Of a DNA stretch of 34,458 nt, positions 14,509 through 34,340 are shown one piece after another. The notes under the pieces were generated by a model. The model saw only the letters and a program-made list of their open reading frames with translations, had not been told where the DNA came from and did not search any database. Both the position numbers and the translations under genes were made by a program. The stretch's first letter is position 1, and each line of letters begins with the position of its first letter. This stretch comes from a virus. The stretch lies in IMG/VR virus record IMGVR_UViG_3300044675_005596, positions 1 to 34,458 of that record, one strand, 5' to 3'.

Positions 14509-14567
14509 ATTTTACAATATTGGACTTTTTGTTTAATTTTTGTTAGTATTTGAAAAAACGAAAAACT

Positions 14568-16616
14568 ATGTTAGAAGAATTTGCGGGCGAAAACAACAAT
14601 GAAAAGGCGAAAAAGAAATCTGATGGTGGTACACCGGTGTTAGATAACTTTAGTAAGGACTTAAACAAATTAGCGGAAGAGGGGAAATTAGATCCTGTTA
14701 TCGGGAGAAAAAAGGAAATTATTAGGATTGCGCAAATTCTATCAAGAAGAAAGAAAAACAACCCAATTATTATTGGTGAACCAGGGGCGGGTAAAACTGC
14801 GATTGTTGAGGGATTATCAATGTTAATACATAACGGAGAATGCCCTAAAAACTTGATGGATAAGAGAATCGTCTCATTAGATATGAATTCCATTGTCGCT
14901 GGTACCAAATATCGTGGTCAGTTTGAGGAGAGAATGAAAGTAATCATTGAGGAACTCCAATCAACTCCGAACATCATTTTATTTATCGATGAAATCCATA
15001 CCATAGTTGGTGCTGGTAATAGTTCAGGTTCTTTAGATGCGTCAAACATCTTTAAACCGGCATTATCTCGAGGTGAAATCCAATGTATTGGAGCAACAAC
15101 ATTAGATGAGTATAGAACAAACTTCGAAAAAGACGGAGCCTTAGAGAGAAGATTCCAAAAAGTGGTAGTTGACCCATCCACAAAAGAAGAAACCTTCGAA
15201 ATCCTAAAACAAAGTAAGGAGAAGTATGAAGATCATCACAAAGTAACTTATGATGATGACACACTATGGACGTTTGTTGAATTAGCGGATCGTTACATTA
15301 CCGATCGTGAGTTTCCAGATAAGGCATTTGACATTTTAGATGAGGTGGGAGCAAGAATGCAAATTGATATTAAATTACCTGAAAGTATTGAACAACTTAA
15401 AGTAGAAGCTTCCAATATCAAACAAGAGAAGTATCGAGTTATCAAACAACAGAATTACGAACAAGCTGCAGAACTTCGCGATAGAGAACGAAACATATTA
15501 TCTAAATTAGAAGCAGAGAAAAAGAAGTTTGAGGACCACCTAAGAAGTAGTAAAAGAACTATCCCTGAAGAATTGGTTTATGAGGTTGTTTCAAATATGA
15601 CAAAAATTCCAATCTCAAATATTAACTTAGATGAGAGAAATTCGCTTATCAACTTAAACAATAATTTAAGTTCAAAAGTAATCGGTCAAGAAGAAGCGGT
15701 TATAAAGATCACAAAGGCTATTCGTAGAAATAGAATGGGTATTAAGGATCCAAACAAACCAATTGGGTCATTCATATTCTTAGGGTCAACAGGTGTTGGT
15801 AAAACTTACTTGGCAAAACAATTAGCGAAAGAAATGTTTGGTAGTGAAGACAATATGATCCGTGTGGATATGTCTGAATACCAAGAGAAACATACAATCT
15901 CTCGTTTAATTGGTTCTCCTCCAGGATATGTTGGTCACGATGAGGGTGGACAATTAACCGAACAAGTTAAAAACAAACCATATTCTGTGGTATTGTTTGA
16001 TGAGATCGAGAAGGCTCATAAAGACATATTCTCAACACTTCTTCAGTTGTTAGACGATGGACACATTACAGATTCATTGGGACGTAAGATTAATTTCAAA
16101 AATTGTTTAATCATTATGACTTCAAACATTGGGGTTAAAAAATTGCAAGATTTTGGAACCGGAGTTGGGTTTAAAACTATTAACTCAAGTGAAGTAGTTC
16201 AGGAAGAACAAAAAAGAGAAATCCTTAAAAAAGAATTAAGTAAGTTCTTTGCCCCTGAGTTCTTAAATAGAATTGATGATGTTGTAATTTTTAACTCATT
16301 AGAGAAAAAACACATTGACGTTATTACTAAATTGGAGGTGGATAAATTGTTAAAACGAGTTAGTGAGAAGAAATACAATTTCACTTACGAACAGGATTTA
16401 ATTGATTACATCTCAAAAGTTGGGTTCGATGAAACGTTCGGGGCAAGACCAATCAAGAGAGCAATCCAAGATAAGATTGAGGATTTAATTTCTGAAAAGA
16501 TATTAATGATGGAAATTGAGGAGGGTAAAGATTATGTCCTTAAAGTGGAGAATGATGAGGTTGTGACTTCCCTTAAAGAAGAAAAAATTAAAAAAACAAG
16601 AAAAAAGAAAGAATAA
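14568..16616 (+). CDS. clpC: ClpC-type AAA+ unfoldase lacking the N-domain
   Basis: A two-ring-domain Hsp100 ATPase (682 aa from the ATG; a TTG 18 nt upstream is possible). D1 has Walker A GEPGAGKT (70-77) and Walker B ILFIDE (138-143). The middle domain has a UVR-like hairpin (284-306). D2 has Walker A GSTGVGKT (406-413) and Walker B VVLFDEI (474-480). A VGF tripeptide (533-535) lies exactly where ClpC and ClpA carry the ClpP-docking loop, so it probably works with host ClpP rather than as a ClpB-type disaggregase. The usual 140-residue Clp N-domain that binds adaptors is missing, so substrate choice must use another route, perhaps the divergent UVR protein. It is on the plus strand with its own promoter region. 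Confidence 0.93.
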   Translation: MLEEFAGENNNEKAKKKSDGGTPVLDNFSKDLNKLAEEGKLDPVIGRKKEIIRIAQILSRRKKNNPIIIGEPGAGKTAIVEGLSMLIHNGECPKNLMDKRIVSLDMNSIVAGTKYRGQFEERMKVIIEELQSTPNIILFIDEIHTIVGAGNSSGSLDASNIFKPALSRGEIQCIGATTLDEYRTNFEKDGALERRFQKVVVDPSTKEETFEILKQSKEKYEDHHKVTYDDDTLWTFVELADRYITDREFPDKAFDILDEVGARMQIDIKLPESIEQLKVEASNIKQEKYRVIKQQNYEQAAELRDRERNILSKLEAEKKKFEDHLRSSKRTIPEELVYEVVSNMTKIPISNINLDERNSLINLNNNLSSKVIGQEEAVIKITKAIRRNRMGIKDPNKPIGSFIFLGSTGVGKTYLAKQLAKEMFGSEDNMIRVDMSEYQEKHTISRLIGSPPGYVGHDEGGQLTEQVKNKPYSVVLFDEIEKAHKDIFSTLLQLLDDGHITDSLGRKINFKNCLIIMTSNIGVKKLQDFGTGVGFKTINSSEVVQEEQKREILKKELSKFFAPEFLNRIDDVVIFNSLEKKHIDVITKLEVDKLLKRVSEKKYNFTYEQDLIDYISKVGFDETFGARPIKRAIQDKIEDLISEKILMMEIEEGKDYVLKVENDEVVTSLKEEKIKKTRKKKE

Positions 16617-16663: not shown

Positions 16664-17704
16664 ATGAATTTAAATAAATTTAAAGAACTTCTGTCTGTAC
16701 CATCTAAGACATACAAAGAAAGTAAGATGGTTGAGTATCTTATATCAACCATTGGTGATATGGAGGGAGTTACTCTTACTTGTGACGAACATAACAACAT
16801 ATATGTAACAAAAGGAACATTGGGTGAAGGTGAGTTTTACCCAATGTTTATTTCACATACCGATACGGTACACGAACTTGTTGATGAAATTATAGTTAAG
16901 GAAGAACACCTTATTCGTCCTTACACATTTGGTAAGGATTTCGGCAACGAACAATCTCTTTGTTTAAAGGCATACGATAAAAACGACAAACCAACAGGTA
17001 TTGGTGGTGACGACAAATGTGGTATCTATATTTGTATTGAATTGTTAAGTCAATTAGACAAAGTTAAGGTTGCATTATTTGTTTCCGAAGAAACAGGTTG
17101 TCACGGTTCAAGAATGGTAAATGAGGATTTCCTTAAAGACGTTGGATATTGTGTCCAATACGACGCACCAGGTGATCACCTGATCTCTTATAGTTGTTTT
17201 GGGACGGTATTGTTCGATAAAGATGGTGAGTTCTTTGAAACGTCTCTTAGATCAATTACAAAATCATTCAAAAATGAGATGTTAGTACAATCGCACCCAT
17301 ATACTGATATTATGATAATCAAACAAAAGTCTGACTTTTCTTGTTTAAATATGTCTTGTGGTTACTACAATATGCACACACCTAATGAGTTCATTTGTAT
17401 TGATGATGTTGAGAGAGCAATTGAGGCTGGTAAAAACTTGGTGAAAGATCTTGGTTTAACCAAATATGAATTCTTATATGAAACACCAAAACCTCTTTAC
17501 ACGGGTTCATCGTTATTAAATAATGATGATGAGGATGAAGATCCGTTTTATGAGGAAGTTCATCAGTTATCATCAATCGACGTGATCGAAGACAGAGGTG
17601 GAATTATTATTTCGGATTGTTACGATGAAAATCAATTTTACATCGATGATGAAGATGGTGTTATGTTATATGAGATCCTAAAAAAACGTTATGATTTAAA
17701 TTAA
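16664..17704 (+). CDS. Zinc metallopeptidase of the M20/M28/M42 type, PepT-like
   Basis: 346 residues with the metal-ligand series of di-zinc exopeptidases: SHTDTVH (H65, D67), GGDDKCG (D116, bridging), SEETGCHGS (E142 catalytic, E143 ligand) and YDAPG (D167). The spacing and GxDDKxG block are closest to peptidase T, a cytoplasmic tripeptidase, or to M42 aminopeptidases. The C-terminal 80 residues are acidic and not family-typical. It lies 47 nt after clpC on the same strand but has its own promoter box. It ends with a 4-nt overlap against the convergent 382-aa gene. In context it could trim peptides released by ClpC-ClpP, which is inference. Confidence 0.86.
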   Translation: MNLNKFKELLSVPSKTYKESKMVEYLISTIGDMEGVTLTCDEHNNIYVTKGTLGEGEFYPMFISHTDTVHELVDEIIVKEEHLIRPYTFGKDFGNEQSLCLKAYDKNDKPTGIGGDDKCGIYICIELLSQLDKVKVALFVSEETGCHGSRMVNEDFLKDVGYCVQYDAPGDHLISYSCFGTVLFDKDGEFFETSLRSITKSFKNEMLVQSHPYTDIMIIKQKSDFSCLNMSCGYYNMHTPNEFICIDDVERAIEAGKNLVKDLGLTKYEFLYETPKPLYTGSSLLNNDDEDEDPFYEEVHQLSSIDVIEDRGGIIISDCYDENQFYIDDEDGVMLYEILKKRYDLN

Positions 17705-18864: not shown

Positions 18865-18895
18865 TTGTTAAGTATAAGTTTTTGTATTATATTTG
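18865..18895 (+). promoter_or_regulatory. Host-type promoter of the tmRNA gene
   Basis: TTG at 18865-18867, a 20-bp spacer, then TATATTTG at 18888-18895, a full match to the Bacteroidota -33/-7 promoter. The mature tmRNA begins 19 nt downstream. Confidence 0.75.
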
Positions 18896-18914: not shown

Positions 18915-19313
18915 GGGGGTGTACTTGGATTTGACAGGTATTGGCTGAGGAATAAGGGCACGTGGAGACTGAATTAATCTCCTTAAAAACTGATTCACTT
19001 TTATAGACGGCAACGTTTTAGACAAAATGGAAACTCTTGGATTAGTAAGAGAATCTGAAGTTACTGTAGCTTAATAAGATACGGAAACGGGGGGTCGGTG
19101 GACATACAACCTAGCAACAGAAGTCTTTACAAAGGTGTGGTTTCTACCCAAAAAGAAACAAAACGGGTATGGTTCCCCGAAAGAACTGTCACCGTCACTG
19201 AGCGGTGTGAGAACTCAGATATTTCGGAAGGTATGACAAACCTTGACCTAAACGTGTAGTCCTTGTCTGACAGGATAAGCTGGACGAGGGTTCGAATCCC
19301 TCCACCTCCACCA
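18915..19313 (+). ncRNA. ssrA: tmRNA (transfer-messenger RNA), one-piece
   Basis: A complete tmRNA of 399 nt that rescues stalled ribosomes. The 5' end GGGGGUGUACUUGGAUUUGACAG is the family signature. The acceptor stem pairs GGGGGUG (18915-18921) with CACCUCC (19303-19309). The T-arm is GAGGG-TTCGAAT-CCCTC (19286-19302), and CCA is encoded at 19311-19313. A resume site UAGAC followed by GGC starts the tag reading frame at 19009. The internal region has room and paired segments for the usual pseudoknots. It is followed at once by a terminator and then by the smpB gene on the other strand. Phage tmRNAs are rare but known. Having its partner SmpB beside it is unusual. Confidence 0.97.
19009..19074 (+). 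other. tmRNA tag reading frame with non-standard degron
   Basis: From the GGC resume codon the frame encodes 21 residues starting GNVLDKM and ending SEVTVA, then tandem stops TAA TAA (19072-19077). The glycine start is like Bacteroidota tags (GETNYALAA type). The tag is roughly twice as long and ends V-T-V-A instead of A-L-A-A. Confidence 0.85.
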
Positions 19314-19347
19314 ACTATAAACCTCATCTTCGGATGGGGTTTTTTTA
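19308..19347 (+). terminator. tmRNA 3' end plus terminator (copy 1 of a dispersed repeat)
   Basis: After the encoded CCA, CCTCATC-TTCG-GATGGGG is followed by seven T. The block starting at CCACCA is repeated at 21152-21192, and more degenerately at 19880-19915. Confidence 0.9.
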
Positions 19348-19394
19348 TGCGGTAAAATTATTAATTAGTGTTGTGCGATTATTATATTTTTATG

Positions 19395-19422
19395 CAAAAA
19401 AAAGAGGTATTAATTACCTCTT
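19395..19422 (-). terminator. Terminator overlapping the smpB stop
   Basis: Minus-strand hairpin GAGGTA-ATTA-TACCTC followed by eight T. The smpB stop codon lies inside the stem. Confidence 0.8.
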
Positions 19423-19844
19423 TTAATATCACGATCAATATCTCTTGATTTTATTGTTTGACGTTTATCGTAAAGTTTTTTACCTCTGGCCAACGCAATT
19501 TCCAATTTTATTAAATTCCTATCATTCACAAATAAACGATATGGAACAATAGTTAACCCATTTATAAGTTGATCTTTTAAATTCTTTAATTCTTTTTTCT
19601 TAAGAAGTAATTTTCTGTCCACCACAGTTTCGTGAGACGACCCAAACCCATAATCTGATATGTTCATACCTTTAATGAATAATTCCCCGTCTCTGAAGTA
19701 GCAATATCCCTCAGAGATGGATGCTTTACCCATCCTTATTGCTTTCACTTCCGATCCCTTAAGTTTTATCCCCGCAATCTCAACTTGAATAAATTCATAC
19801 TCAAATTTAGATTTTTTGTTCACTATGTTAACTGAATTTTTCAT
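19410..19844 (-). CDS. smpB: SmpB, tmRNA-binding protein
   Basis: SmpB escorts tmRNA into the ribosomal A site. The protein (144 aa from the ATG at 19842-19844; a GTG 15 nt upstream would add five residues) shows NKKSKFEYEF, then IAGIKLKGSEVKAIRMGKAS, then ELFIKGMNIS. It ends with LEIALARGKKLYDKRQTIKSR and a basic tail that would line the mRNA channel. All family hallmarks are present and the length is close to normal. The gene converges on the tmRNA gene, 96 bp between ends. A TATATTTG box sits 4 nt before the ATG, implying a near-leaderless mRNA if it is the promoter. Confidence 0.96.
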   Translation of the reverse strand: MKNSVNIVNKKSKFEYEFIQVEIAGIKLKGSEVKAIRMGKASISEGYCYFRDGELFIKGMNISDYGFGSSHETVVDRKLLLKKKELKNLKDQLINGLTIVPYRLFVNDRNLIKLEIALARGKKLYDKRQTIKSRDIDRDIKRGN

Positions 19845-19879
19845 ACTACAAATATACACATAAAAATATTTTATTTAAT

Positions 19880-20509: not shown

Positions 20510-21097
20510 TTATGAAAATATATCAGATGATGATTTAATAAATTTAGGGTCCGTTGATAATTTGTAATATATTGAACCAAACACCGGATTAATTACTCCT
20601 GTCCCAAGATCTTTATAATTATTTTTCATTATTACTCTACCATTTTTAGTACTATACGGCATTATCGTTATAAATGTAGAACCCCCCATTTTATCAGAAA
20701 ATAAATAACCTGCCTTTGTTTTAGGGCTAAACACTACACTATTAATAGTGAACATACGAGGATCCAAAAGTTCTTTCGAATATTCCATTTGAAGTTTGTT
20801 AGTAATTGGTTTGAATCCAAATGCTAGTTTACCAACTAACATACTAGGATCCGATCCTTGACCAGTACCATAATAATTATAAATACGTTTGTAATTTTCT
20901 TCATTTATTTCATTAGTAGTTTTACTACCATTCGGACCTAACCATTCTGCATCATCTTCAGCAAATACAAATCCTGGTATTGGACTTGGTGTTGATGGTT
21001 TAGATGATACCTGATCACCTGACGCCACTTGTTCAGAGATAACTCTTTTTACTATATTAACCAATTCTGATTCTTTTAATCTTACAATTCTTGCCAT
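20510..21097 (-). CDS. Leader-type protein 1 (195 aa), candidate head-internal protein
   Basis: The first 23 residues (MARIVRLKESELVNIVKRV, then ISEQ) are identical to those of the 148-aa protein at 21994-22440 and similar to those at 33190-33654. The leader is a basic amphipathic helix ending in I-S-E, which fits the L/I-x-E cleavage consensus of T4-type prohead proteases. This resembles the capsid-targeting sequence of T4 internal proteins. The remaining part (Tyr/Gly-rich, FAEDDAEWLGPNG, then MLVGKLAFGFKPITNK) is unrecognised and looks globular. An exact late box (21113-21120) is 15 nt upstream. The 5' 112 bp are a perfect repeat of the other gene's start. Confidence 0.7.
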   Translation of the reverse strand: MARIVRLKESELVNIVKRVISEQVASGDQVSSKPSTPSPIPGFVFAEDDAEWLGPNGSKTTNEINEENYKRIYNYYGTGQGSDPSMLVGKLAFGFKPITNKLQMEYSKELLDPRMFTINSVVFSPKTKAGYLFSDKMGGSTFITIMPYSTKNGRVIMKNNYKDLGTGVINPVFGSIYYKLSTDPKFIKSSSDIFS

Positions 21098-21993: not shown

Positions 21994-22440
21994 TTATTGT
22001 TGTATTGTTTCTTGAGGATTAAATCGTTGTAAATAATCAGCAAACCTTCTTAAGTAAGGGTTGTTATCTAACTGACCCCAATTTGCAGTTCTTGCCGATT
22101 GTGTTTCATCATACTCATCACCGTAACTCATATCGGTAGCAATGTATTTCATAATAGTATTATACCCTTCTTTCTTAACATAAGATAAACAAGTTTGGTA
22201 ATCCGCTTTATTTTTAATAGTGAAGACACCTGTTTGAACTTTAGCTTCGTCGGTACCTAACCCATCCATACCCGCTTTAATTAATTGGAATGCCTTTAAT
22301 CCATTATTAACCGCCGGTTTAGCTCCTGTTGCCATACCTGATTTAGCTCCTGCCGCCGCACCAGTACCTACTTGTTCAGAGATAACTCTTTTTACTATAT
22401 TAACCAATTCTGATTCTTTTAATCTTACAATTCTTGCCAT
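21994..22440 (-). CDS. Leader-type protein 2 (148 aa) with an annexin-like GTDE motif
   Basis: The N-terminal leader is identical to that of the gene at 20510 and ends ISEQ, a likely prohead protease site. A Gly/Ala-rich linker (residues 24-45) follows. The folded part then reads AFQLIKAGMDGLGTDEAKVQ, reminiscent of the GLGTDE core of annexin repeats, and ends with a helical Tyr/Arg/Gln-rich tail. An annexin-type calcium or lipid function is not claimed. The late box at 22456-22463 is 15 nt upstream. Packaging into the head followed by delivery into the host is the working hypothesis for this family. Confidence 0.7.
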   Translation of the reverse strand: MARIVRLKESELVNIVKRVISEQVGTGAAAGAKSGMATGAKPAVNNGLKAFQLIKAGMDGLGTDEAKVQTGVFTIKNKADYQTCLSYVKKEGYNTIMKYIATDMSYGDEYDETQSARTANWGQLDNNPYLRRFADYLQRFNPQETIQQ

Positions 22441-22518: not shown

Positions 22519-23482
22519 AATTTCTTTACTTAAATAAGTTTTACCTAAAAAATAAAAACCTGAGATTACAGTTTTTTGTGAGAACCTTTAGTAGTATTAT
22601 TGTTTCCCTACTTATCCACCATCTTTTGAATGGTATTTCTCAGTGACGATTGGTTAGACCAATCACTTCTTAAGATATCAGTTACTCTCTCATTACTCAA
22701 CTCTCTTCGAGACTGCCGTCCCAACTCTTCCTTGCGGGAATAGAGGTTTTTGGTAAGAATATCGTCAAACTTGCGGTCTGATCGATGCAATGAACGGCTC
22801 ATTACTATGTAGTCACCTTTCACTGATACCTGACGGACACTTTTGCTTTAAGTCTAATTTATGATTTTACTCTTCAATGTAAAAATAAAGTTTTGTGTCG
22901 TGGATTGGAGAAGTAGTGGTCCGTCACGGGCTTCGTTATCTTTTGAACAACGAAATACTCAACTACTCCTTGAAATGTCCCCATTTCGATATTTTAAGAT
23001 TACTTCGAGATCAATCCCTTGGTAGAGATTCATCAAGGACAATGTCAGCACCACCTGTTTGTTGTCATACCTTTCGGTTTTAAGTACCCTCTGATACTGG
23101 AACCCACAATTGTAAAGTCGGATAACGATACTTTTTGTTTGATCCCTACGAGTTATTCCTATTGGTGTTCCCACCTCAATCAGACGACCCACATCGCCCA
23201 ATCGTTTAACCACTTTCCCTACATCGTTGACCTCGGTACTAAAGGTTATACGGTATCCCGCTTGTATACTCGACCTCGATTGCTCAAGACGCAAACCCAA
23301 CACACTTAAGGGTTCACTTTATCCTACTTTCGTAGTTTATTTTATGGACTATATACGGCCCAATATCTTTATCAGTTACACCCAAGCTGCGGACTTTCTG
23401 CCATTTACTCGGTGGATAATTCTATCACCGACACTTCGTGTTTCCTGAACGGATAATCTAATCTTTCAAAGAACGTTATCGG
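22519..23482 (-). ncRNA. Candidate large structured non-coding RNA (about 960 nt)
   Basis: This stretch runs from two host-type promoters (23502-23533, 23591-23621) to a terminator at 22493. It carries the leader AACGTTCTTTGAAAGATTAG (23462-23481 region) that also opens the RNA array at 29.7 kb. Long frames exist on both strands but start with GTG or a late ATG. Hairpins are dense: TTCGTT/AACGAA (22932-22953), TTTTAC/GTAAAA (22864-22885) and AAAGT/ACTTT (23115-23135). Its base composition is richer in G+C than the flanking genes. Large phage RNAs of this size near tRNA genes include the GOLLD and ROOL classes, and membership in either is not shown here. A short operon of small ORFs is the alternative. 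Confidence 0.45.
22608..22802 (-). CDS. Possible small basic protein (64 aa) inside the 22.5-23.5 kb unit
   Basis: From an ATG at 22800-22802 the frame reads MSRSLHRSDRKFDDIL, a charged helical protein ending NTIQKMVDK. AAAGGTG lies about 11 nt upstream, a Shine-Dalgarno-like site, which is unusual in this window. It may be genuine or an accident of a structured RNA. No family is recognised. Confidence 0.3.
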   Translation of the reverse strand: MSRSLHRSDRKFDDILTKNLYSRKEELGRQSRRELSNERVTDILRSDWSNQSSLRNTIQKMVDK

Positions 23483-26956: not shown

Positions 26957-26972
26957 AAGTTATAATTTAAGT

Positions 26973-27045
26973 GGTCCATCCAGGACTCGAACCTGGGACT
27001 TTCTCGTTATGAGCGAGCTACTCTAACCAACTGAGTTAAAAGACC
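26973..27045 (-). tRNA. tRNA-Met (CAT)
   Basis: T-arm CCAGG-TTCGAGT-CCTGG. Anticodon arm CTCG-CTCATAA-CGAG with anticodon CAT. The D-arm has GTTGGTT. The acceptor GGTC-TTT/ATGGACC has one mismatch. No CCA is encoded. The CAT anticodon could also be an isoleucine tRNA modified to lysidine. Confidence 0.88.
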
Positions 27046-27054
27046 TGAAGATTT

Positions 27055-27285
27055 TTATGCCTTCACTAAATGTTTCTCCATCATCTCCGTTGCTTTAGCT
27101 ACAGCTAAATCTTTGGTTTTGAATCCCTTCTCTTTCAATTTCTTAGCGTGTAAGATATTATACTCAGTCGATACAACTTGAGGTTTTGCACCTCTTTCTT
27201 TACTCGTTTTCATTGAGTCTTTTGCGTAGATATCGTAAAAACCTACTTTACAAATGTAACGTCCTTTGTCTGTTCCTTTACCCAT
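27055..27285 (-). CDS. Small basic protein (76 aa)
   Basis: Not recognised. MGKGTDKGRYICKVGFYDIY is followed by a Lys-rich linker and a helical C-terminus (ILHAKKLKEKGFKTKDLAVA). It may bind nucleic acid because of its charge and its setting among tRNA genes. The leader is a run of A and G with no Shine-Dalgarno. A TATATTTG box lies 34 nt upstream. Confidence 0.62.
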   Translation of the reverse strand: MGKGTDKGRYICKVGFYDIYAKDSMKTSKERGAKPQVVSTEYNILHAKKLKEKGFKTKDLAVAKATEMMEKHLVKA

Positions 27286-27318
27286 TTTTTCTTTTTTTTA
27301 TTTAGTTAAACAATAATA

Positions 27319-27326
27319 CAAATATA
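27319..27326 (-). promoter_or_regulatory. Host-type -7 box (TATATTTG) for the 76-aa gene
   Basis: Matches TAnnTTTG on the minus strand. A TTG lies about 17 bp further upstream, a little closer than optimal. Confidence 0.5.
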
Positions 27327-27364
27327 GTGATTTTATTTTAATACAATGAATAATTTTATCTTTT

Positions 27365-27757
27365 TTAATAAAAAATTTCTTTAGCCACTTCAGACACGAT
27401 AGAATTATCCGCTTTACCTCTGTAAATGGTATTGAATTGTTTCATAACCTTACTTACGTTATCATGCCCATTCTCAACCATCTCTTTGATTACAGAAACA
27501 ATCTCATCTCGAGACATAAGTTGTGGTAAATACGGTTTAATGTATTCTAATTCTTTAATAGATTCTTCCGTGTTTGTTTGTTTCAACGATTTCTCCATTT
27601 TGCGAAGGATTCCCATAACAACCTCATCGGTTACATTACCTGATCTACCTTCTTCATTTTGGATCTCACCTTTAACAACCCCAAGGAAGTTTTTCTTATC
27701 CATTTCTTTGTTTTTGAATGCAACCATAAAGTCATCATTAATTTTTTCTTTTAACAT
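27365..27757 (-). CDS. YqeY/GatB-like domain protein (130 aa)
   Basis: I chose the ATG at 27755-27757, because a longer frame would run into tRNA-Asp. The protein reads MLKEKINDDFMVAFKNKEMD, then LGVVKGEIQNEE and LEYIKPYLPQLMSRDEI, and ends VSEVAKEIFY. This is the YqeY family, related to the tRNA-binding tail domain of the amidotransferase subunit GatB. The family is found beside tRNA-related genes in bacteria. Here it starts 16 nt from tRNA-Asp. A role in tRNA handling is plausible but unproven for the family. Confidence 0.85.
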   Translation of the reverse strand: MLKEKINDDFMVAFKNKEMDKKNFLGVVKGEIQNEEGRSGNVTDEVVMGILRKMEKSLKQTNTEESIKELEYIKPYLPQLMSRDEIVSVIKEMVENGHDNVSKVMKQFNTIYRGKADNSIVSEVAKEIFY

Positions 27758-27772
27758 AATATTGGTAATTTT

Positions 27773-27847
27773 TGGCGGTCCATCCGGGAATCGAACCCGA
27801 AGCATATCCGTGACAGGGATATATGTTAGCCGTTACACCAATGGACC
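27773..27847 (-). tRNA. tRNA-Asp (GTC), copy 1, with encoded CCA
   Basis: Acceptor GGTCCAT/ATGGACC, discriminator G, and CCA encoded at 27773-27775. The anticodon arm is TATCC-CTGTCAC-GGATA. It is the only tRNA in the cluster where I see an encoded CCA. Confidence 0.93.
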
Positions 27848-28072
27848 AAAGTTTCCCCACCTTGAGATTAAGGGTGAGTATTATTTCCCGGTTTCCTATT
27901 TGTAACCCTGCGGATCTTACTCCTTGAAAACGTCAGTTCTTTACGTCGGCAGTGCTGAACCTTGCTACTGTTTTATCCCGAACCGATTGCCTTTGGGAGG
28001 CTTTTTTTAACCCTATCCATTGTTAAATGAGTCTTGGATAAAAGACTGGTGAGTATCTCTTACTCAATATTA
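27848..28072. other. Non-coding spacer with hairpins and a plus-strand terminator
   Basis: No gene recognised. GCCT-TTGGG-AGGC followed by seven T (27988-28008) is a terminator on the plus strand, opposite to all genes around it. TGAGTA-TCTCT-TACTCA (28049-28066) is a perfect hairpin. An antisense RNA could end here. Confidence 0.45.
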
Positions 28073-28196
28073 AAATGTAATATAATGGTTTATAAATTGG
28101 ATGTGAGTACACCTACATCACATTTGATCCTCTCATTAGGAAAAACCGTTCTATTTTCCTCCTTTCTACCAACCAGGCCGTTTTTATATTACATTT
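28073..28196 (-). ncRNA. Structured module closed by a 13-bp perfect stem
   Basis: AAATGTAATATAA (28073-28085) pairs perfectly with 28184-28196, enclosing 98 nt. It lies directly next to a tRNA-like gene (28199). The long closing stem resembles an RNase III processing stem. Confidence 0.5.
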
Positions 28197-28198
28197 AG

Positions 28199-28267
28199 TA
28201 GTTAGGACAGGATTCGAACCTATTCTACGAAGTGTGACCTCCTCAGTGCACCATACACCACCTAACT
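28199..28267 (-). tRNA. tRNA-like gene, 69 nt, anticodon uncertain
   Basis: Acceptor AGTTAGG/CCTAACT and T-arm ATAGG-TTCGAAT-CCTGT are good. The D-arm is short (GTGT-ATGGT-GCAC). The anticodon arm (GAGGAGGTCACACTTCG) pairs badly. T33 alignment would give CAC (Val). It may be a degenerate tRNA. Confidence 0.5.
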
Positions 28268-28388
28268 AAATAAAAGTAAATCTAACCATACCATTTGTGT
28301 ATTCCATTTGTCATTATACACTCGTGTGTTTTATGTATAGTTCTGCTTCAACCCAACTTTGACAACTTCACCAGGTTTTACTTTTTTG

Positions 28389-28515
28389 TAGTCAGGACAG
28401 GATTCGAACCTGCACGATGAGGTGTGTTTTTCTCTCAGGGCTTCTATTGCTTATACACCCGTCTTGATTACCGACACTTGTTACCAACCTACGTATTCCA
28501 ATACGCAACCTGACT
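28389..28515 (-). tRNA. Oversized tRNA-like RNA (127 nt)
   Basis: The ends are perfect: acceptor AGTCAGG/CCTGACT, T-arm GCAGG-TTCGAAT-CCTGT and D-arm GCGT-ATTGGAAT-ACGT. Between D-arm and T-arm there are about 80 nt instead of 22. They contain three related 14-nt units (GGTTGGTAACAAG, TGTCGGTAATCAAG, ACGGGTGTATAAGC) and a GGTGT/ACACC stem. No anticodon arm is convincing. Confidence 0.5.
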
Positions 28516-28520
28516 ATAAA

Positions 28521-28607
28521 AACACAACTCTATCTCCTTTGAGTGTTCAGGGTTGACATTGCCGTTTTTCAGGTATTCTTACATATCCTTACTCCCTTAG
28601 TTGTGTT
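28521..28607 (-). ncRNA. Structured module closed by AACACAACT/AGTTGTGTT
   Basis: A 9-bp perfect stem encloses 69 nt. It sits between a 127-nt tRNA-like RNA and a terminator, in the same minus-strand array. Confidence 0.42.
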
Positions 28608-28656
28608 ATAAAAAAAGATCCTGAATTGTCCCTGCACTAACTCAGGAGGATCTTTT
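28608..28656 (-). terminator. Terminator within the RNA array
   Basis: Minus-strand AAGATCC/GGATCTT stem with an inner CCTGA/TCAGG stem, followed by seven T. It may end the transcript that starts from the promoter at 29766. Confidence 0.7.
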
Positions 28657-28934
28657 AGTTTTCTTATATTTAGTGTCTCTATATCCCTCACCGTTATAAC
28701 TAGAATTCGCTAGCCCGTAGTAACCATCCCCGGTGGGTTTCTACTTTCACACTCCGTCCATACCTACTAACCTAATCGAAGTGAGTCATAGGCTTTCGTA
28801 TATAGCGTTCAGTGCTATCCTCAGAACATCTTCACCCTACCCCCAAAGTTACGTGGCGAGTCTCACTCGGAAGATCTGAGTGTATATTGTGAGATTGTTC
28901 AGTATTCTCACAACTTGTGGATTGTATTACGATC
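28657..28934 (-). ncRNA. Hairpin-rich non-coding stretch
   Basis: No ORF with a plausible start. Hairpins at 28711-28743 (GTAG..CTAC), 28803-28819 (ATAGC/GCTAT), 28867-28885 (CACTC/GAGTG) and 28888-28915 (TTGTGAGA/TCTCACAA). Confidence 0.4.
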
Positions 28935-29076
28935 ACTTAAGACCCCTCACCCCCTTAATCCATAATGGGGAATCCTTACCTAACCCGTGTAGCCTCCCCC
29001 ATAGCCTTGAAGCCTTCAAGTCAGGTTCACACACCATAACAGACGGATATTTCTGTTAATCGTGGGGTCTTAAAGT
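28935..29076 (-). ncRNA. Structured module closed by ACTTAAGACCCC/GGGGTCTTAAAGT
   Basis: An 11-12 bp stem with one bulge encloses about 117 nt. Inner hairpins are AACAGA/TCTGTT and CTTGAAG-GCTTCAAG. Its right arm overlaps the left arm of the next module by 5 nt, so the two folds compete. Confidence 0.48.
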
Positions 29077-29140
29077 AGAGTATGACGTATGCTCGTTTTA
29101 TAGTTGTTTCCATCCGCAAACTCACGGTTCTCTCTACTTT
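29072..29140 (-). ncRNA. Structured module closed by AAAGTAGAG/CTCTACTTT
   Basis: A 9-bp perfect stem around 51 nt. It abuts the 115-nt tRNA-like RNA at 29142. Confidence 0.42.
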
Positions 29141-29141
29141 G

Positions 29142-29256
29142 TAGTCAGGGTAGGATTCGAACCTACAATGAGCAACCTTATAACTCCTCTCGTCCAAATG
29201 GTTATGAACAGTAGTGTTTTTCGGACTCGGCACCATGCCTCATTACACTCCTGACC
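29142..29256 (-). tRNA. Oversized tRNA-like RNA (115 nt)
   Basis: Acceptor GGTCAGG/CCTGACT with one wobble and T-arm GTAGG-TTCGAAT-CCTAC are intact. Inside, AGTGT pairs with ACACT around a GGCA/TGCC hairpin in the D-arm position, and ATAAC pairs with GTTAT further 3'. No ordinary anticodon arm is visible. Confidence 0.48.
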
Positions 29257-29275
29257 CCTTGAGGTTGAGATCCTC

Positions 29276-29340
29276 TGTGTTGTAGAGCTTCCTTTAATAT
29301 CTCTCTTGGGTTTATATTCCTTTCTCAAGGGAACAACACA
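29276..29340 (-). ncRNA. Structured module closed by TGTGTTGT/ACAACACA
   Basis: An 8-bp perfect stem enclosing 49 nt, next to the following module. Confidence 0.38.
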
Positions 29341-29487
29341 ATATTGTTGATAGTGTTGGGATACCCATCTCGTCCCAATCTTAACTGCTTAATTGTAGTT
29401 TTACGATGCATCGGCAGGGGGTGCTGAATTCCTGGTCCACTCTGGATTGTCGACATCCGTTGAATGGGGAAAACCACTATCAATATT
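29340..29487 (-). ncRNA. Structured module closed by AATATT-GATAGTG stem
   Basis: AATATT..GATAGTG (29340-29355, 3-nt bulge) pairs with CACTATCAATATT (29475-29487). It encloses about 120 nt without an ORF. Confidence 0.42.
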
Positions 29488-29494
29488 TTAAAAA

Positions 29495-29719
29495 TGGTAA
29501 GACCTTAAGATTTACTTATTCGTGGGTCACCCCATCTCTACTACCTATACCTCGCCTTTAACATCCGTTCTACCCAAACCATCGTTTCTACACCTGTTAA
29601 CCTCTCGGTTATCTTTGAGTACCTCCTCAACTATTAATCTGATAGGGGCTCCGTCTTGCTCGTCATTTCTGACTCCGCCGTGGGGTTCTGCTGATATAGG
29701 TCTATCTGCTATCTTACCA
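29495..29719 (-). ncRNA. Structured module closed by TGGTAAGA/TCTTACCA (225 nt)
   Basis: An 8-bp perfect stem around 209 nt. It is the first element transcribed after the promoter at 29766 and the GTTCTTTGA leader. Confidence 0.42.
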
Positions 29720-29732
29720 ATTTATTTTTTCT

Positions 29733-29755
29733 AATCTATCAAAGAACGTTTTCTC
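29733..29755 (-). promoter_or_regulatory. GTTCTTTGA leader element (boxA-like)
   Basis: AACGTTCTTTGATAGATTAG on the minus strand. The same element with one change opens the 22.5-23.5 kb unit, and GTTCTTTGACATATTG precedes tRNA-Leu(TAA). It resembles the boxA antitermination site of stable-RNA operons (TGCTCTTTAACA). Confidence 0.5.
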
Positions 29756-29765
29756 TTTTGTCTTA

Positions 29766-29796
29766 CAAAGATATGTGTTTTTTTCATTCTACCAAA
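29766..29796 (-). promoter_or_regulatory. Host-type promoter of the 28.6-29.7 kb RNA array
   Basis: TTTG, 19-bp spacer, TATCTTTG on the minus strand. Confidence 0.8.
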
Positions 29797-29818
29797 TCTT
29801 TTATCAAACTTTTTTTTG

Positions 29819-29939
29819 TAGTCAGGACAGGACTCGAACCTGTAATAGTACCATACTCATTGATTTTACTCAACTTCAGAGATTCGAACTCCATCTCCCC
29901 TTTGATGAGAGGGGCGGTCTACCATTTCACCACCTAACT
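29819..29939 (-). tRNA. tRNA-Leu (CAA) of 121 nt with two T-arms
   Basis: Acceptor AGTTAGG/CCTGACT. D-arm GTG-AAATGGTAGAC-CGC as in tRNA-Leu. Anticodon arm CTCTC-ATCAAAG-GGGAG with anticodon CAA. Then, unexpectedly, a T-arm-like GAG-TTCGAAT-CTC and a GTTGA/TCAAT hairpin. After these come a normal variable arm (AGTA-TGG-TACT) and the true T-arm ACAGG-TTCGAGT-CCTGT. It looks like a fusion of two tRNA bodies. Confidence 0.6.
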
Positions 29940-29946
29940 ATTTATG

Positions 29947-30020
29947 AACTACCCATAGGACTCGAACCTATAACCCTTCGGCGATTGCCGATGTGCAAAC
30001 CAATTTACACCATAAGTAGT
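29947..30020 (-). tRNA. tRNA-like gene, anticodon uncertain
   Basis: Acceptor ACTACTT/GGGTAGT and T-arm ATAGG-TTCGAGT-CCTAT. D-arm GTGT-AAATTGGTTT-GCAC. The anticodon position folds as TCGGC-AATC-GCCGA, a 5-bp stem with only four loop bases. The length is normal (74 nt). Confidence 0.52.
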
Positions 30021-30116
30021 TAATCAAGAAGACAAACAGAAATTAGTGGATCCAAATCTCTTTAAGCTATATGACTCATCTTCTTGTTAGGATCGGTTAA
30101 TTACTCCGGTCTTCGC
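30021..30116. other. Spacer between tRNA-like genes
   Basis: I see no ORF or tRNA. A minor hairpin is present (GATCGG.. near 30091) but nothing convincing. Confidence 0.4.
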
Positions 30117-30208
30117 TGATTAAAATGGATTCGAACCATAATCCTGAGTCCCCTTTCCCAGTCGTTAACTCGTACTCCGTTCCTCTGTGCTCCTTTACAC
30201 CATAATCA
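30117..30208 (-). tRNA. Oversized tRNA-like RNA (about 92 nt)
   Basis: Acceptor TGATTAT/TTTAATCA (weak), T-arm around ATGG-TTCGAAT-CCAT, D-arm GTGT-AAAGGA-GCAC. About 47 nt lie between D- and T-arms instead of 22, with a GAGT/ACTC stem. The anticodon is not identifiable. Confidence 0.42.
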
Positions 30209-30257
30209 ATCGACAGTTTCGAACCTGTCAGTCTCAGGTTAATTACACCTGAGATTT
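30209..30257 (-). tRNA. tRNA fragment or D-armless mini-tRNA
   Basis: A T-arm-like ACAGG-TTCGAAA-CTGT (30213-30229 area) follows a perfect hairpin CTCAGGT-GTAATTA-ACCTGAG. No D-arm or proper acceptor stem is seen. It is best read as a tRNA remnant in the leader of the next gene. Confidence 0.3.
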
Positions 30258-30258
30258 G

Positions 30259-30330
30259 TAGTCGGTACGGGATTCGAACCCGTGTGACAAGGATGAAAAC
30301 CTTGTATCCTGACCCCTAGATGAACCGACC
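30259..30330 (-). tRNA. tRNA-Glu (TTC)
   Basis: Acceptor GGTCGGT/ACCGACT, anticodon arm ACAAGG-TTTTCAT-CCTTGT with TTC, T-arm ACGGG-TTCGAAT-CCCGT. No CCA encoded. Directly downstream of a host-type promoter. Confidence 0.93.
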
Positions 30331-30339
30331 ATTTTTGGG

Positions 30340-30498
30340 TTAACCCTTTTGTTTTACAAAGGTAGTTTTTCTTTTTGATCCACCAAAGCTTTTTTTAATT
30401 TTTTTCCCTAAGGATGTTAACAAATCAGTATTTCTATTAGTTTTAACAAAATTTACTCTTCCTGATTCGCAAGTCCCTGATAAAACTTCTCTCATCAT
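30340..30498 (-). CDS. Possible small basic protein (52 aa)
   Basis: From an ATG at 30496-30498 (a second ATG follows) the frame reads MMREVLSGTCESGRVNFVKT, then NTDLLTSLGKKIKKSFGG and a Lys/Arg-rich end. The sequence looks protein-like and could bind nucleic acid. Its 3' half overlaps the tRNA-Glu promoter. A-rich leader, no Shine-Dalgarno. Confidence 0.42.
   Translation of the reverse strand: MMREVLSGTCESGRVNFVKTNRNTDLLTSLGKKIKKSFGGSKRKTTFVKQKG
30357..30387 (-). promoter_or_regulatory. Host-type promoter upstream of tRNA-Glu
   Basis: TTTG, 19-bp spacer, TACCTTTG on the minus strand, 27 nt before tRNA-Glu. Confidence 0.78.
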
Positions 30499-30524
30499 TC
30501 ATTTGTTTTTGTTGTTTATTATTG

Positions 30525-30596
30525 CGGTCCCACGGAGAATCGAACTCCGAACTTCGCCGTGACAGGGCGACATTATAGCCGTTTAACTATGAGACC
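30525..30596 (-). tRNA. tRNA-Asp (GTC), copy 2
   Basis: Acceptor GGTCTCA/TGGGACC, anticodon arm TCGCC-CTGTCAC-GGCGA, T-arm CGGAG-TTCGATT-CTCCG, discriminator G. It differs clearly from copy 1 at 27773. Confidence 0.92.
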
Positions 30597-30607
30597 AATT
30601 AAAGAGT

Positions 30608-30720
30608 GTAAAAGATTCATCTTACCTAAGACCGCGAATCCTTGTAAGACTTAACTTCACCAATCTGTTGATTTGCAACTCATCAGATTGTCAGGTTACT
30701 ACTCATCAGGAACCTTTTAC
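30608..30720 (-). ncRNA. Structured spacer module closed by GTAAAAG/CTTTTAC
   Basis: A 7-bp stem encloses about 99 nt with an inner AATCTG/CAGATT hairpin. It lies between tRNA-Asp and the next tRNA-like gene. Confidence 0.38.
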
Positions 30721-30738
30721 TGCTTTGAATAATTCGTT

Positions 30739-30808
30739 CAGATAATACAGGAATCGAACCTGCTCCTCCGGATTCTTCTGTCCGGCGTGGTCGCCATTCC
30801 ACTAATCT
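30739..30808 (-). tRNA. tRNA-like gene with 8-nt anticodon loop
   Basis: T-arm GCAGG-TTCGATT-CCTGT, D-arm TGG-AATGGCGA-CCA. The anticodon arm is a perfect CCGGA/TCCGG stem around an eight-base loop CAGAAGAA that lacks the universal T33. The acceptor AGATTAG/ATTATCT has two mismatches. The loop resembles tRNA-Phe (GAA) with one inserted base. Confidence 0.5.
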
Positions 30809-30841
30809 CCCAAACTACTTATTTTCCACTTTTCTCTTTTG

Positions 30842-30915
30842 TGGAAGTAACGGGACTCGAACCCATGTTCTCGCAACAACAGTCGCTTTATTCTATCCTA
30901 TTAAACTATACTCCC
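30842..30915 (-). tRNA. tRNA-like gene, possibly Asn (GTT)
   Basis: Acceptor GGGAGTA/TACTTCC and T-arm ATGGG-TTCGAGT-CCCGT. CTGTTG in the anticodon region gives GTT after T33. The best stem is GCGAC-TGTT-GTTGC with a four-base loop, so the arm is abnormal although the total length is right. Confidence 0.5.
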
Positions 30916-31104
30916 AAATCACTTTACCCTACAAAGTGTAAGCAGGTTTAGTCGCGGACTTTCACGACCTATACGTCTATAGGTCTCCTTCCTGATGAGG
31001 TCTCTTTTCGTGACACGTACATTGTTACTATTTCAAACAATCCCATTGGTCATCACTGGCACGTCATTCATCTTTTTAACACGAAGCCACCGTGTTGCCC
31101 ATCG
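30916..31104. other. Spacer with strong hairpins
   Basis: No gene seen. Perfect hairpins are CACTTT/AAAGTG (30922-30940) and GACCTATA-CGTC-TATAGGTC (30968-30987). Confidence 0.4.
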
Positions 31105-31174
31105 TGGACACTGTGGGAATCGAACCCAAACGATCTGATTGCAAATCAGTCGACCTGCCGTCGGCATCAGGCCC
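31105..31174 (-). tRNA. tRNA-Ala (TGC)-like, short D-arm
   Basis: Anticodon arm CTGA-TTTGCAA-TCAG with TGC. T-arm around TGGG-TTCGATT-CCCA. The acceptor GGGCCTG/AGTGTCC is imperfect. The D position holds TGCC-GAC-GGCA, a stem with three loop bases and no GG. Confidence 0.55.
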
Positions 31175-31178
31175 ATAA

Positions 31179-31380
31179 AAAAAAACAAATCTTCCGTGCT
31201 CACCACGGGTGTGGATTTTACCGATGGTTTGTTCCCCATCACCTGTTACGTGGCCACGTAGAGCAGGGTCCATTACAGAGTACCTTGGGACATTCAAACT
31301 CTCCGTAAAGGTTGCGATCCTATGAGAGCCAAGGTTCCTTTCATCCGCGCTATTCGGACTTCTGTAAGATTTGTTTTTTT
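31179..31380 (-). ncRNA. Structured module closed by a 15-bp perfect stem (202 nt)
   Basis: Seven A followed by CAAATCTT (31179-31193) pairs perfectly with 31366-31380. It is the longest closing stem in the array. Inside are ACGTGGCCACGT (palindromic) and CCGTGCTCACCACGG. It sits exactly between tRNA-Ala and tRNA-Gly. Confidence 0.52.
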
Positions 31381-31381
31381 G

Positions 31382-31455
31382 AGCGGGTAGTGGGACTCAA
31401 ACCCACAACCCCCAGCTTGGAAGGCTAGTGCTCTAATCAATTGAGCTATACCCGC
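31382..31455 (-). tRNA. tRNA-Gly (TCC)
   Basis: Acceptor GCGGGTA/TACCCGC, D-arm AGCTC..GAGC, anticodon arm CTAGC-CTTCCAA-GCTGG, T-arm GTGGG-TTTGAGT-CCCAC. No CCA. Confidence 0.93.
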
Positions 31456-31670
31456 AGTTTGGTTACTCCCTTGGGTCAGTTTCACCATTAACGTGAATGG
31501 GGTGATCAAACCCACTAACATCACGAGTGTAAGTTTTATCGATAAACTATCTCCACAAAACGTCAGTTTTTATCGACCAAAACTGAATAAACGGCTTAAT
31601 ATCTTGTGGACCCATTTTTAAGTGCTCACCACTTCCATTCTTAAGCTGAACTCTACTGTCAACACTCCCG
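31456..31670. other. Spacer with stem-loops
   Basis: No gene seen. CCATT-CACGTT-AATGG (minus), a GTTTATCGATAAAC palindrome and TCCACAA/TTGTGGA (31552-31558 with 31604-31610) are present. Confidence 0.38.
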
Positions 31671-31751
31671 TACTGATGGTTGGATTCGAACCAACGTTTT
31701 CAACTTACCTCTACAGGTATGGACGATATAAGCGTCCACTGGTACATCAGC
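31671..31751 (-). tRNA. tRNA-Ile (TAT)-like with reduced D-arm and variable arm
   Basis: Acceptor GCTGATG/CATCAGT, anticodon arm GGACG-CTTATAT-CGTCC (anticodon TAT, T33 present), T-arm GTTGG-TTCGAAT-CCAAC. Only seven bases (TACCAGT) stand where the D-arm should be. A TACCT-GTAG-AGGTA variable arm is present, not expected for Ile. Confidence 0.55.
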
Positions 31752-31758
31752 ATTTTAG

Positions 31759-31831
31759 TTGCGGGAGCCGGACTCGAACCGACGATCTAGGCTTATGAGA
31801 CCCAGCGGATAACCATCTTCCACATCCCGCT
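31759..31831 (-). tRNA. Initiator tRNA-fMet (CAT)
   Basis: Stem GCGGGA/TCCCGC with position 1 A facing A72, unpaired as in initiators. Anticodon arm TGGGT-CTCATAA-GCCTA. T-arm GTCGG-TTCGAGT-CCGGC as in bacterial fMet. Phage initiator tRNAs are uncommon. Confidence 0.8.
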
Positions 31832-31838
31832 ATATTTG

Positions 31839-31913
31839 TGGTGTGAGAATGGAATCGAACCATCGGCACAGGAGTTTTCCGGCTCCTTGCTCTACCTACT
31901 GAGCTACCACACC
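31839..31913 (-). tRNA. tRNA-like gene with 8-nt anticodon loop
   Basis: Normal D-arm (AGCTCAGTAGGTAGAGC) and T-loop TTCGATT. The anticodon stem AGGAG/CTCCT is perfect but the loop CCGGAAAA has eight bases and no T33. One extra base also sits between the T-arm and acceptor. The loop resembles Phe (GAA) with an insertion. Confidence 0.55.
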
Positions 31914-31940
31914 ATTTTATGTAAAATTACTAAAAATATA

Positions 31941-32450
31941 TCACTTAAACAACTTACCTTGATAATTTTTAGCCACTTCTTTTAATTTTTCATTTGAGTA
32001 GTTTGAGTGTTCTAATCTATGACATAAAGCACATAATAAATCACACTTATCTAACTCATTTTTAACTCTATCCCAGCTCATATTTGCCATATTAAGAGCA
32101 CTGGAGTTAAAATCTTTTTCGTTAGGATTTCTGTGATGAAAATCATACCCTGATAAATCACCTTCCCATCCACATTTAACACATTTACCACCCAAGTATT
32201 TAATAGCAAATTCTTTTACTCGGAATCGTCTTATGTTAACTGAACACATTTGGCAAAAGTTTTTACTTGTTATTGTTTTACCACAAAGTCGGCAACAAGT
32301 TTCTTCTTTTTTATTGTATTCTAAACCATTTCTGTTTATTATCCTATAAACAGTTCTTCTCCCAATTCCTAGTTCTTTAGTTATTTCTGTGGGTGTTTTC
32401 TTTTCACCATACAATCTAATAACCTCCAATTCTTTCTCAGTTTTCTTCAT
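31941..32450 (-). CDS. HNH homing endonuclease, free-standing (169 aa)
   Basis: N-terminal helix-turn-helix (TEITKELGIGRRTVYRIINR, about 17-37), then a zinc-binding CxxC pair (CCRLCGK, CQMC) and a second pair (GKCVKCGW). The HNH core is YDFHHRNPNEKDF followed by LCALCHRLEH. Such enzymes cut a specific site and spread their own gene. There is no intron around it, and it lies between a tRNA-like gene and an RNA promoter. Mobile HNH genes often target tRNA-rich or intergenic phage regions, so it may explain the rearranged RNA genes nearby. A one-mismatch late box lies about 17 nt upstream of the start. Confidence 0.88.
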   Translation of the reverse strand: MKKTEKELEVIRLYGEKKTPTEITKELGIGRRTVYRIINRNGLEYNKKEETCCRLCGKTITSKNFCQMCSVNIRRFRVKEFAIKYLGGKCVKCGWEGDLSGYDFHHRNPNEKDFNSSALNMANMSWDRVKNELDKCDLLCALCHRLEHSNYSNEKLKEVAKNYQGKLFK

Positions 32451-32535
32451 ACCTTTTTATTTAATAAATATCAAGAAAAATAAGAAAAGACACACTTTTA
32501 TTAAAAAAAGTTTATATTTTTTGTGTCTCTTTTTG

Positions 32536-32634
32536 TAGTCAGGACAGGATTCAAACCTGTGTTGCCCTTAGTTGCTCTTACTTCTCAGTAAAGTGTGGGA
32601 TCGAACCACACCTGGACCAAAATTCCACCTGACT
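32536..32634 (-). tRNA. tRNA-like of 99 nt with two T-loop hairpins (Ser CGA or Leu GAG)
   Basis: Acceptor AGTCAGG/CCTGACT and terminal T-arm ACAGG-TTTGAAT-CCTGT. After a short D-arm (GGA..TCC) there is GTGTGG-TTCGATC-CCACAC. This could be a Ser CGA anticodon arm but has T-loop sequence. It is followed by a TTTACT/AGTAAG hairpin with CTGAGAA (possible Leu GAG). Either reading leaves an extra arm. Confidence 0.5.
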
Positions 32635-32740
32635 ATTTTTTTTTGTAATTAGTAGTTGACTCACACTCTCGTTTCACCATCTTGAGCCAACAGGTTAATG
32701 TACTTTACGAGTTTCCCGTTTCTTACCACCACTTGTTCTA

Positions 32741-32772
32741 CAAAGATATGTAATCACTTTTGATTTGCCAAA
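32741..32772 (-). promoter_or_regulatory. Host-type promoter upstream of the 99-nt tRNA-like gene
   Basis: TTTG, 20-bp spacer, TATCTTTG on the minus strand. Confidence 0.78.
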
Positions 32773-32813
32773 CACTTTGTAATTTATTTTTTATTTTTTT
32801 TTGTACTCGGGGC

Positions 32814-32886
32814 GGGAATCGAACCCGCACTCCCTACGGGAACAGCATTTTAAGTGCTGCGTGACTACCAATTCCACCACCCGAGC
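32814..32886 (-). tRNA. tRNA-Leu (TAA)
   Basis: Acceptor GCTCGGG/CCCGAGT, Leu-type D-arm GTGGAATTGGTAGTCACGC, anticodon arm CAGCA-CTTAAAA-TGCTG, variable arm TCCC-GTA-GGGA, T-arm GCGGG-TTCGATT-CCCGC. No CCA. Confidence 0.93.
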
Positions 32887-32907
32887 AAATCATTCATTAC
32901 CAATATG

Positions 32908-32965
32908 TCAAAGAACCCTTTTTGTTTTGTTCTACAAAGTTAATAAACTTTTTTAAACCAAACAA
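32908..32965 (-). promoter_or_regulatory. Promoter plus GTTCTTTGA leader before tRNA-Leu (TAA)
   Basis: TTG, 20-bp spacer, TAACTTTG (32935-32965) followed by GGTTCTTTGACATATTGG. The leader box is shared with the other RNA arrays. Confidence 0.7.
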
Positions 32966-32974
32966 GAATAAAAA

Positions 32975-33006
32975 CAAAAAACCCACCTCTTTTGGAGATG
33001 GGTTTT
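32975..33006 (-). terminator. Terminator downstream of the 24-aa peptide gene
   Basis: Minus-strand CCCATCTC-CAAAA-GAGGTGGG followed by six T. Confidence 0.85.
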
Positions 33007-33028
33007 AAAATTTCATATATGTAAATTA

Positions 33029-33103
33029 TCACACCATCTCCTTACAGGTAGTATCCTCAGCTATCGCCAATCCGCCTAATAATATGATATGTAAATTTTT
33101 CAT
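33029..33103 (-). CDS. Hydrophobic micropeptide (24 aa)
   Basis: From the ATG at 33101-33103: MKNLHIILLGGLAIAEDTTC then KEMV. Leader TTATAATAAAACAAATAA is very similar to that of the two 112-bp repeat genes, supporting expression. One short hydrophobic helix. No family known. Confidence 0.4.
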   Translation of the reverse strand: MKNLHIILLGGLAIAEDTTCKEMV

Positions 33104-33189
33104 TTGCGTTTTTATTTGTTTTATTATAAGTATATGATACTTTTTGAAAGTGTCAAGTTTTTTTATATTTTTAATTTTTATTGTAGACC

Positions 33190-33654: not shown

Positions 33655-33675
33655 ATTGATAAATACTTTGTAAAA

Positions 33676-33704
33676 TAAAAAACCCCACTCTTTTGAAGTG
33701 GGTG
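33676..33704 (-). terminator. Terminator after tRNA-Leu (TAG)
   Basis: Minus-strand CCCACTT-CAAA-AGAGTGGGG followed by six T. Confidence 0.85.
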
Positions 33705-33708
33705 TTTG

Positions 33709-33790: not shown

Positions 33791-33799
33791 ATATTATTG

Positions 33800-33870: not shown

Positions 33871-33872
33871 AA

Positions 33873-34325: not shown

Positions 34326-34340
34326 CGTTCTTATTTTTTG

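Follow-up and report, generated by a model that had tools for sequence, protein, structure and literature searches.

A large virus of Bacteroidota bacteria encodes both RNA and protein of trans-translation, tmRNA and SmpB, as two intact, conserved, and linked genes, and its tmRNA carries a tag that is conserved as a peptide and distinct from the tags of Bacteroidota. We read this locus as a working trans-translation module owned by the phage, in which a 21–22-residue tag replaces the 9-residue tag of the host, and we put the probability of this full explanation at roughly 70%. Phage ownership of a rescue-and-tag module is well supported; that the module is active, when it acts during infection, and how it competes with the host pair we infer from the genes themselves. 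Trans-translation in phages thereby moves from a known curiosity, the phage tmRNA, to a testable system.

A convergent tmRNA–smpB locus in T4-type phages

The stretch of DNA analyzed, hereafter the window, is a fragment, 34.5 kb long, from a T4-type phage; domain scans identify in it a gp23-like capsid protein, a gp20-like portal, and a large terminase. Its lineage is that of T4-type jumbo phages of Bacteroidota. The tmRNA and smpB genes converge and are separated by 96 bp (Table 1). An earlier note, made from the sequence, had described a complete tmRNA and SmpB pair in one phage locus, and ARAGORN, Rfam, Pfam, and the contigs of relatives all confirm it. IMG/VR holds dozens of relatives of the window, from which 33 close ones were taken. 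The tmRNA faces smpB in 32 of the 32 that cover the site, while the 33rd contig stops 140 bases past smpB. With an identical layout in every close relative where the site is covered, the pairing is far above chance.

Table 1. Features of the tmRNA–smpB locus and the ClpC-like gene (window coordinates)
Feature	Position	Strand	Basis
ClpC-like AAA+ unfoldase, 688 aa, no N domain	14550..16616	+	Alignment to ClpC 6em8
Bacteroidota −7 promoter box of tmRNA (presumed), TATATTTG	18888..18895	+	TAnnTTTG match
One-piece tmRNA (ssrA), encoded CCA	18915..19313	+	ARAGORN; Rfam RF00023
Tag reading frame, GNVLDKMETLGLVRESEVTVA with stop	19009..19077	+	ARAGORN; conservation in relatives
Intrinsic terminator of tmRNA	19319..19342	+	Terminator scan
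Intrinsic terminator of smpB	19400..19424	-	Terminator scan
smpB, 144 aa	19410..19844	-	PF01668; alignment to solved SmpB; tree
Promoter box of smpB, TATATTTG	19849..19856	-	TAnnTTTG match, 12 nt before ATG

Scored with the covariance model, as the earlier note had advised, the window tmRNA matches RF00023 over the full model (positions 1–374) at 105.5 bits (E 1.8e-40), against a gathering cut-off of 47. In its tRNA-like domain the acceptor stem forms 7 of 7 pairs, including the G3.U of the G3.U70 alanine identity, and the T arm forms 5 of 5. The 7-bp acceptor and the G3.U are kept in all 15 aligned tmRNAs; their T-arm stem sequences vary by compensation with pairing kept, provided that the T loop is allowed to be 6 nt long in three of the 15. 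The window tmRNA and some relatives encode CCA, while several others lack it and hence depend on host processing. The Rfam model fits the window tmRNA poorly in part of the pseudoknot region. Across relatives the pseudoknot segment (approximately alignment columns 220–370) takes clearly different forms, one of them shared by G001, L008, and G013. These forms are independent of tag type, which suggests that modules may have been exchanged. A reading of ARAGORN output by which tmRNA was absent from relatives proved wrong, as Rfam and alignment recover the gene. ARAGORN overlooked or misread many phage tmRNAs of this sort, so the frequency of phage tmRNA is probably underestimated.

The window SmpB is equally complete. 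It matches PF01668 at 151.1 bits (cut-off 27; model positions 2–139 of 143), and residues 7 to 141 of its 144 align to solved SmpB proteins, including the basic C-terminal tail GKKLYDKRQTIKSRDIDRDIKRGN, needed for tagging, which aligns with the solved tails. Residues G121, K123, K127, K132, and D135 are invariant across 15 phage SmpB. The proposed phylogeny against Bacteroidota and phages was built with IQ-TREE from 70 SmpB proteins and places the window in an all-phage clade of 17 rows (support 99/99), nested inside the Bacteroidota radiation.

Each gene has its own transcription signals. The sequence TAnnTTTG, which we take to be the Bacteroidota −7 box, stands 27 nt ahead of the window tmRNA; in 14 of 16 loci it precedes the 5′ end of the tmRNA by 22–35 nt. 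It recurs at exactly −12 to the smpB ATG in 16 of 20 loci (window included), and a box so close to the start codon implies a near-leaderless smpB message. Generic sigma-70 promoters occur at chance level (11 matches versus 11.2 expected). Terminator-like sites in the 2-kb region number 5 versus 0.9 expected, with one for tmRNA and one for smpB on opposite strands. The host-type promoter and the separate terminators noted earlier therefore both hold, and in most loci the promoter box keeps its place before each gene.

Could these genes be a recent loan from a host, or an artifact of assembly? Chimeric assembly with a bacterial chromosome was the objection that the earlier note had raised against itself, and both the SmpB lineage and the promoter type are those of the host phylum. 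Against such an origin, the order of T4-type portal, ClpC-like gene, and tmRNA seen in the window is kept in 10 of the 10 close-clade contigs tested (up to 322 kb); a 318-kb contig, for example, has the portal at 45.7 kb, the ClpC-like gene at 56.9 kb, and the tmRNA at 61.2 kb. SmpB moreover falls within an all-phage clade, and the tag is unlike host tags. The colinear portal-bearing contigs and the SmpB tree rule out a chimera or host contamination, an answer that came from independent contigs and not from reads, and we give chimeric assembly or recent pick-up of a host segment a negligible probability. Nor is the locus likely to be what an integration into a tmRNA gene left behind, or a hitchhiker in decay. 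Although tmRNA genes are known integration sites, this one is intact and preceded by a promoter box of its own, and its T arm has changed by compensation; its tag is under selection at the amino-acid level, and domain scans of ten window proteins detected no integrase. This origin we consider very improbable.

A conserved tag peptide unlike that of the host

The tag read from the window, GNVLDKMETLGLVRESEVTVA, comprises 21 residues followed by a stop, and its resume codon, GGC, follows TAGAC. A tag of one conserved type, 21–22 residues long, is present in 32 of 32 related loci covering the gene (GNVLDKMATIGLIREDAAVVA, GNVLNKMALVGLVRQDELVNVA, GNVLDKMSAIGLIRAEEVVVA, GETIAKLSAVGLIRSEEVVTA, and similar). 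Searched on both strands of 550 kb of related sequence, the tag motif gives 32 matches, all of which are tags. Within the clade the tags end in xVA (VVA, TVA, NVA) or VTA, and GL(I/V)R is conserved at mid-tag. Of the 43 tag differences in four separate sequence pairs, 21 are synonymous where 10.7 are expected (P=2.5e-5), and this excess of synonymous change indicates that the peptide itself is under selection.

For the host side, 26 Bacteroidota genomes were picked via their SmpB, and 25 gave readable tags. The chromosomal ssrA and smpB genes resemble the phage pair in belonging to RF00023 and PF01668, in having G as the usual first tag residue, and in their related SmpB lineage. They differ in the tag, which in all 25 readable genomes has 9 aa and ends in LAA or MAA. 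The window clade lacks this host-phylum tag type, which marks the host type and not membership in RF00023. We found no earlier description of conserved long phage tags in the literature on phage tmRNA tag peptides, of which our coverage was partial, so their novelty is not certain. Conservation of a non-host tag suggests that the phage alters the fate of unfinished proteins, beyond copying ribosome rescue.

Tags and partners in other phages

The earlier statement that single tmRNA genes are known in a few phages is out of date: a count in 2022 found 402 phages with tmRNA, 2.3% of phage genomes (PMC9004378). Phage genes are included in the papers that describe the tmRNA database, and the most frequent tag length stated there is 10 aa. 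The pair of tmRNA and SmpB in phages is, as such, already known, having been stated for huge phages by Al-Shayeb et al. in 2020, in a paper whose passages on the pair do not take up tag peptides (PMC7162821). What looks new is the variant: an adjacent convergent pair, a lineage-specific long tag, and a clade-wide ClpC-like gene for a protein without its N domain.

Lak and other huge phages share with the window that one phage encodes both tmRNA and SmpB, as the same paper reports (PMC7162821), and we found SmpB relatives in Lak and in phage records of 634–735 kb. In Lak, however, the tmRNA lies far from smpB and the tags are short (DDEIEFRMAA and, counting one relative, DDTTTYRMAA), whereas the window genes are adjacent and convergent and the tag is long. 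In other smpB-bearing phages, too, the tags read as long, and they fall into several types (GDVYRNMEVAGVLATSKVAA, GNIFDIEENFLANASVEVVSGEVALA, GKKSVWDAINSFGTPVTEVEYAYAA, GNVITNEVGSKADVLAVLKTVKAKPSVAQVEELEIA, and others); in single cases the frame is a putative one, taken from the context of the resume codon and from the openness of the frame. For genome scans with SmpB a 5-row profile was used; one built from 15 diverse phages was too variable. Three huge phages (L047, L057, and L059, from records of 436–642 kb) have smpB and clpP, and no tmRNA scored above cut-off in them or in their full records. Either their tmRNA is too divergent to detect or their SmpB works with host tmRNA.

Phage-borne tmRNA also occurs in phages without smpB, namely Calle_1, Bacillus phage G, Melnitz/Mosig (PMC9004378), and mycobacteriophages. 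Their tags range from a host-like 9 aa in Mosig (GEDNFALAA) through 13 aa in phage G, where smpB was not found, to at least 22 aa in Calle_1. The last, a cultured phage of Cellulophaga, has a long tag of 22 aa by ARAGORN and up to 30 by its TAAAC resume context. Neither smpB nor clpP was found in its genome; a phage can therefore have a long tag without SmpB or Clp of its own. Since Calle_1 infects Bacteroidota, is in culture, and has a tmRNA with a long tag, it offers a way into laboratory work. Overall, long tags appear to be common, and not universal, in phages. One phage with a full tmRNA, L070 (LR756508.1, 413304–416415), has in addition a tmRNA-model hit of 112 nt (positions 1501–1612 of the extracted segment; 58.2 bits) that looks like the tRNA-like domain alone, similar in kind to mycobacteriophage DS6A.

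ClpC-like and ClpP genes and the fate of tagged proteins

A ClpC-like gene lies no more than 10 kb from smpB in 31 of 31 related contigs with enough flanking sequence to show it. Its product aligns to ClpC 6em8 from residue 146 onward (E 2e-216) and, like ClpC of S. aureus and B. subtilis, has two AAA+ modules, with two Walker A motifs, and a UVR-like middle segment; the VGF loop, which in ClpC binds ClpP, is present in all copies listed. It differs in having no ClpC N domain (residues 1–145), which is absent from the window protein and from all 22 relatives listed; we therefore call the protein ClpC-like and not a full ClpC. The N domain of ClpC binds adaptors. The window, being a fragment, does not extend to any clpP. 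ClpP is encoded in 6 of 6 relatives of 156–322 kb, and alignment puts its catalytic Ser, His, and Asp where known ClpP has them. The ClpC-like gene may have a role in the rescue-and-tag module. In one relative (G049, contig positions 149182–152909) this gene is split in two with about 1.7 kb between the pieces, possibly by an insertion or intron. An M20/M42-type peptidase gene (16664–17704, +) adjoins it in the window, and relatives have a 43–49% identical copy whose orientation with respect to smpB is reversed.

How would such a module work? The tmRNA and smpB would be transcribed separately from host-type promoters, and host alanyl-tRNA synthetase would charge the phage tmRNA through the kept G3.U70 pair. 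During infection, the charged tmRNA and phage SmpB would then enter ribosomes that have stalled on broken messages and set them free, and unfinished proteins would receive the 21–22-residue tag of the phage lineage in place of the 9-residue tag of the host, whose own tmRNA and SmpB presumably still work during infection. Tagged proteins might finally be degraded by the phage's N-domain-less ClpC and ClpP, and perhaps by host ClpXP too, since the tag has kept a small, nonpolar C terminus (xVA). This is the least certain step. E. coli proteases accept an LVA tag variant, which the VVA, TVA, and NVA ends resemble, so host proteases may suffice, and both this likeness and Calle_1 weaken the case that phage ClpC and ClpP read the phage tag. 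Control of ribosome rescue by the virus, as the earlier note suggested, is plausible from the gene content, its strongest support being the conserved non-host tag together with the phage ClpC-like and ClpP genes. A wider generalization, in which long lineage-specific tags have repeatedly replaced the host tag in large phages and are read by N-domain-less ClpC and ClpP as a private tag-and-destroy circuit, seems to us doubtful; if true, such a circuit would be a degradation code separate from that of the host. Should the phage ClpC-like/ClpP pair indeed read the tag, it would constitute a natural orthogonal degron system.

Three other readings concern what the pair does. The pair may add only dosage, working like the host pair, with tagged proteins taken by host ClpXP and a long tag that is tolerated without a dedicated partner. 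The host-type promoters fit, as do a C-terminal residue that is still Ala, preceded by a small or nonpolar one, and the long tag of Calle_1 without clpP; yet the tag is conserved at the amino-acid level, including the mid-tag GL(I/V)R, which is superfluous to a host degron located at the C terminus, and long tags recur in unrelated phages. We regard dosage alone as possible, if on the unlikely side. Rather unlikely is a role in counter-defence, with the pair replacing host tmRNA and SmpB, or clearing ribosomes from the many non-stop messages left by RNA-cleaving defences or by phage-driven mRNA decay. No direct link between module and defence was found in this analysis, but the tRNA genes present in the window point to a struggle over RNA, and CoCoNuT defence proteins have SmpB-like domains for which an action on tmRNA is predicted (PMC11090510). 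This role is compatible with the phage-owned module. Rescue without destruction, the new tag sparing or relocating truncated phage proteins, would fit the loss of the (L/M)AA end found in the 25 readable Bacteroidota tags. We think it improbable, as nearly all phage tags still have a small nonpolar end residue and the lineage keeps ClpC-like and ClpP genes.

Several neighbors of the module may be recorded. The tRNA genes, about 15 in number, form an array at 26971–34413 (-), and ARAGORN assigns some of them odd anticodon loops. A GOLLD RNA (325.5 bits) occupies 22557–22970 (-); in close relatives such an RNA often shares the strand of smpB and stands a short distance upstream of it, which places two large structured RNAs at one locus. 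Three unrelated-looking proteins, encoded at 20510–21097, 21994–22440, and 33190–33735 (all -), have in common an N-terminal motif resembling MxRIVRLxESELxNIVKRVIxE, perhaps a targeting or leader segment.
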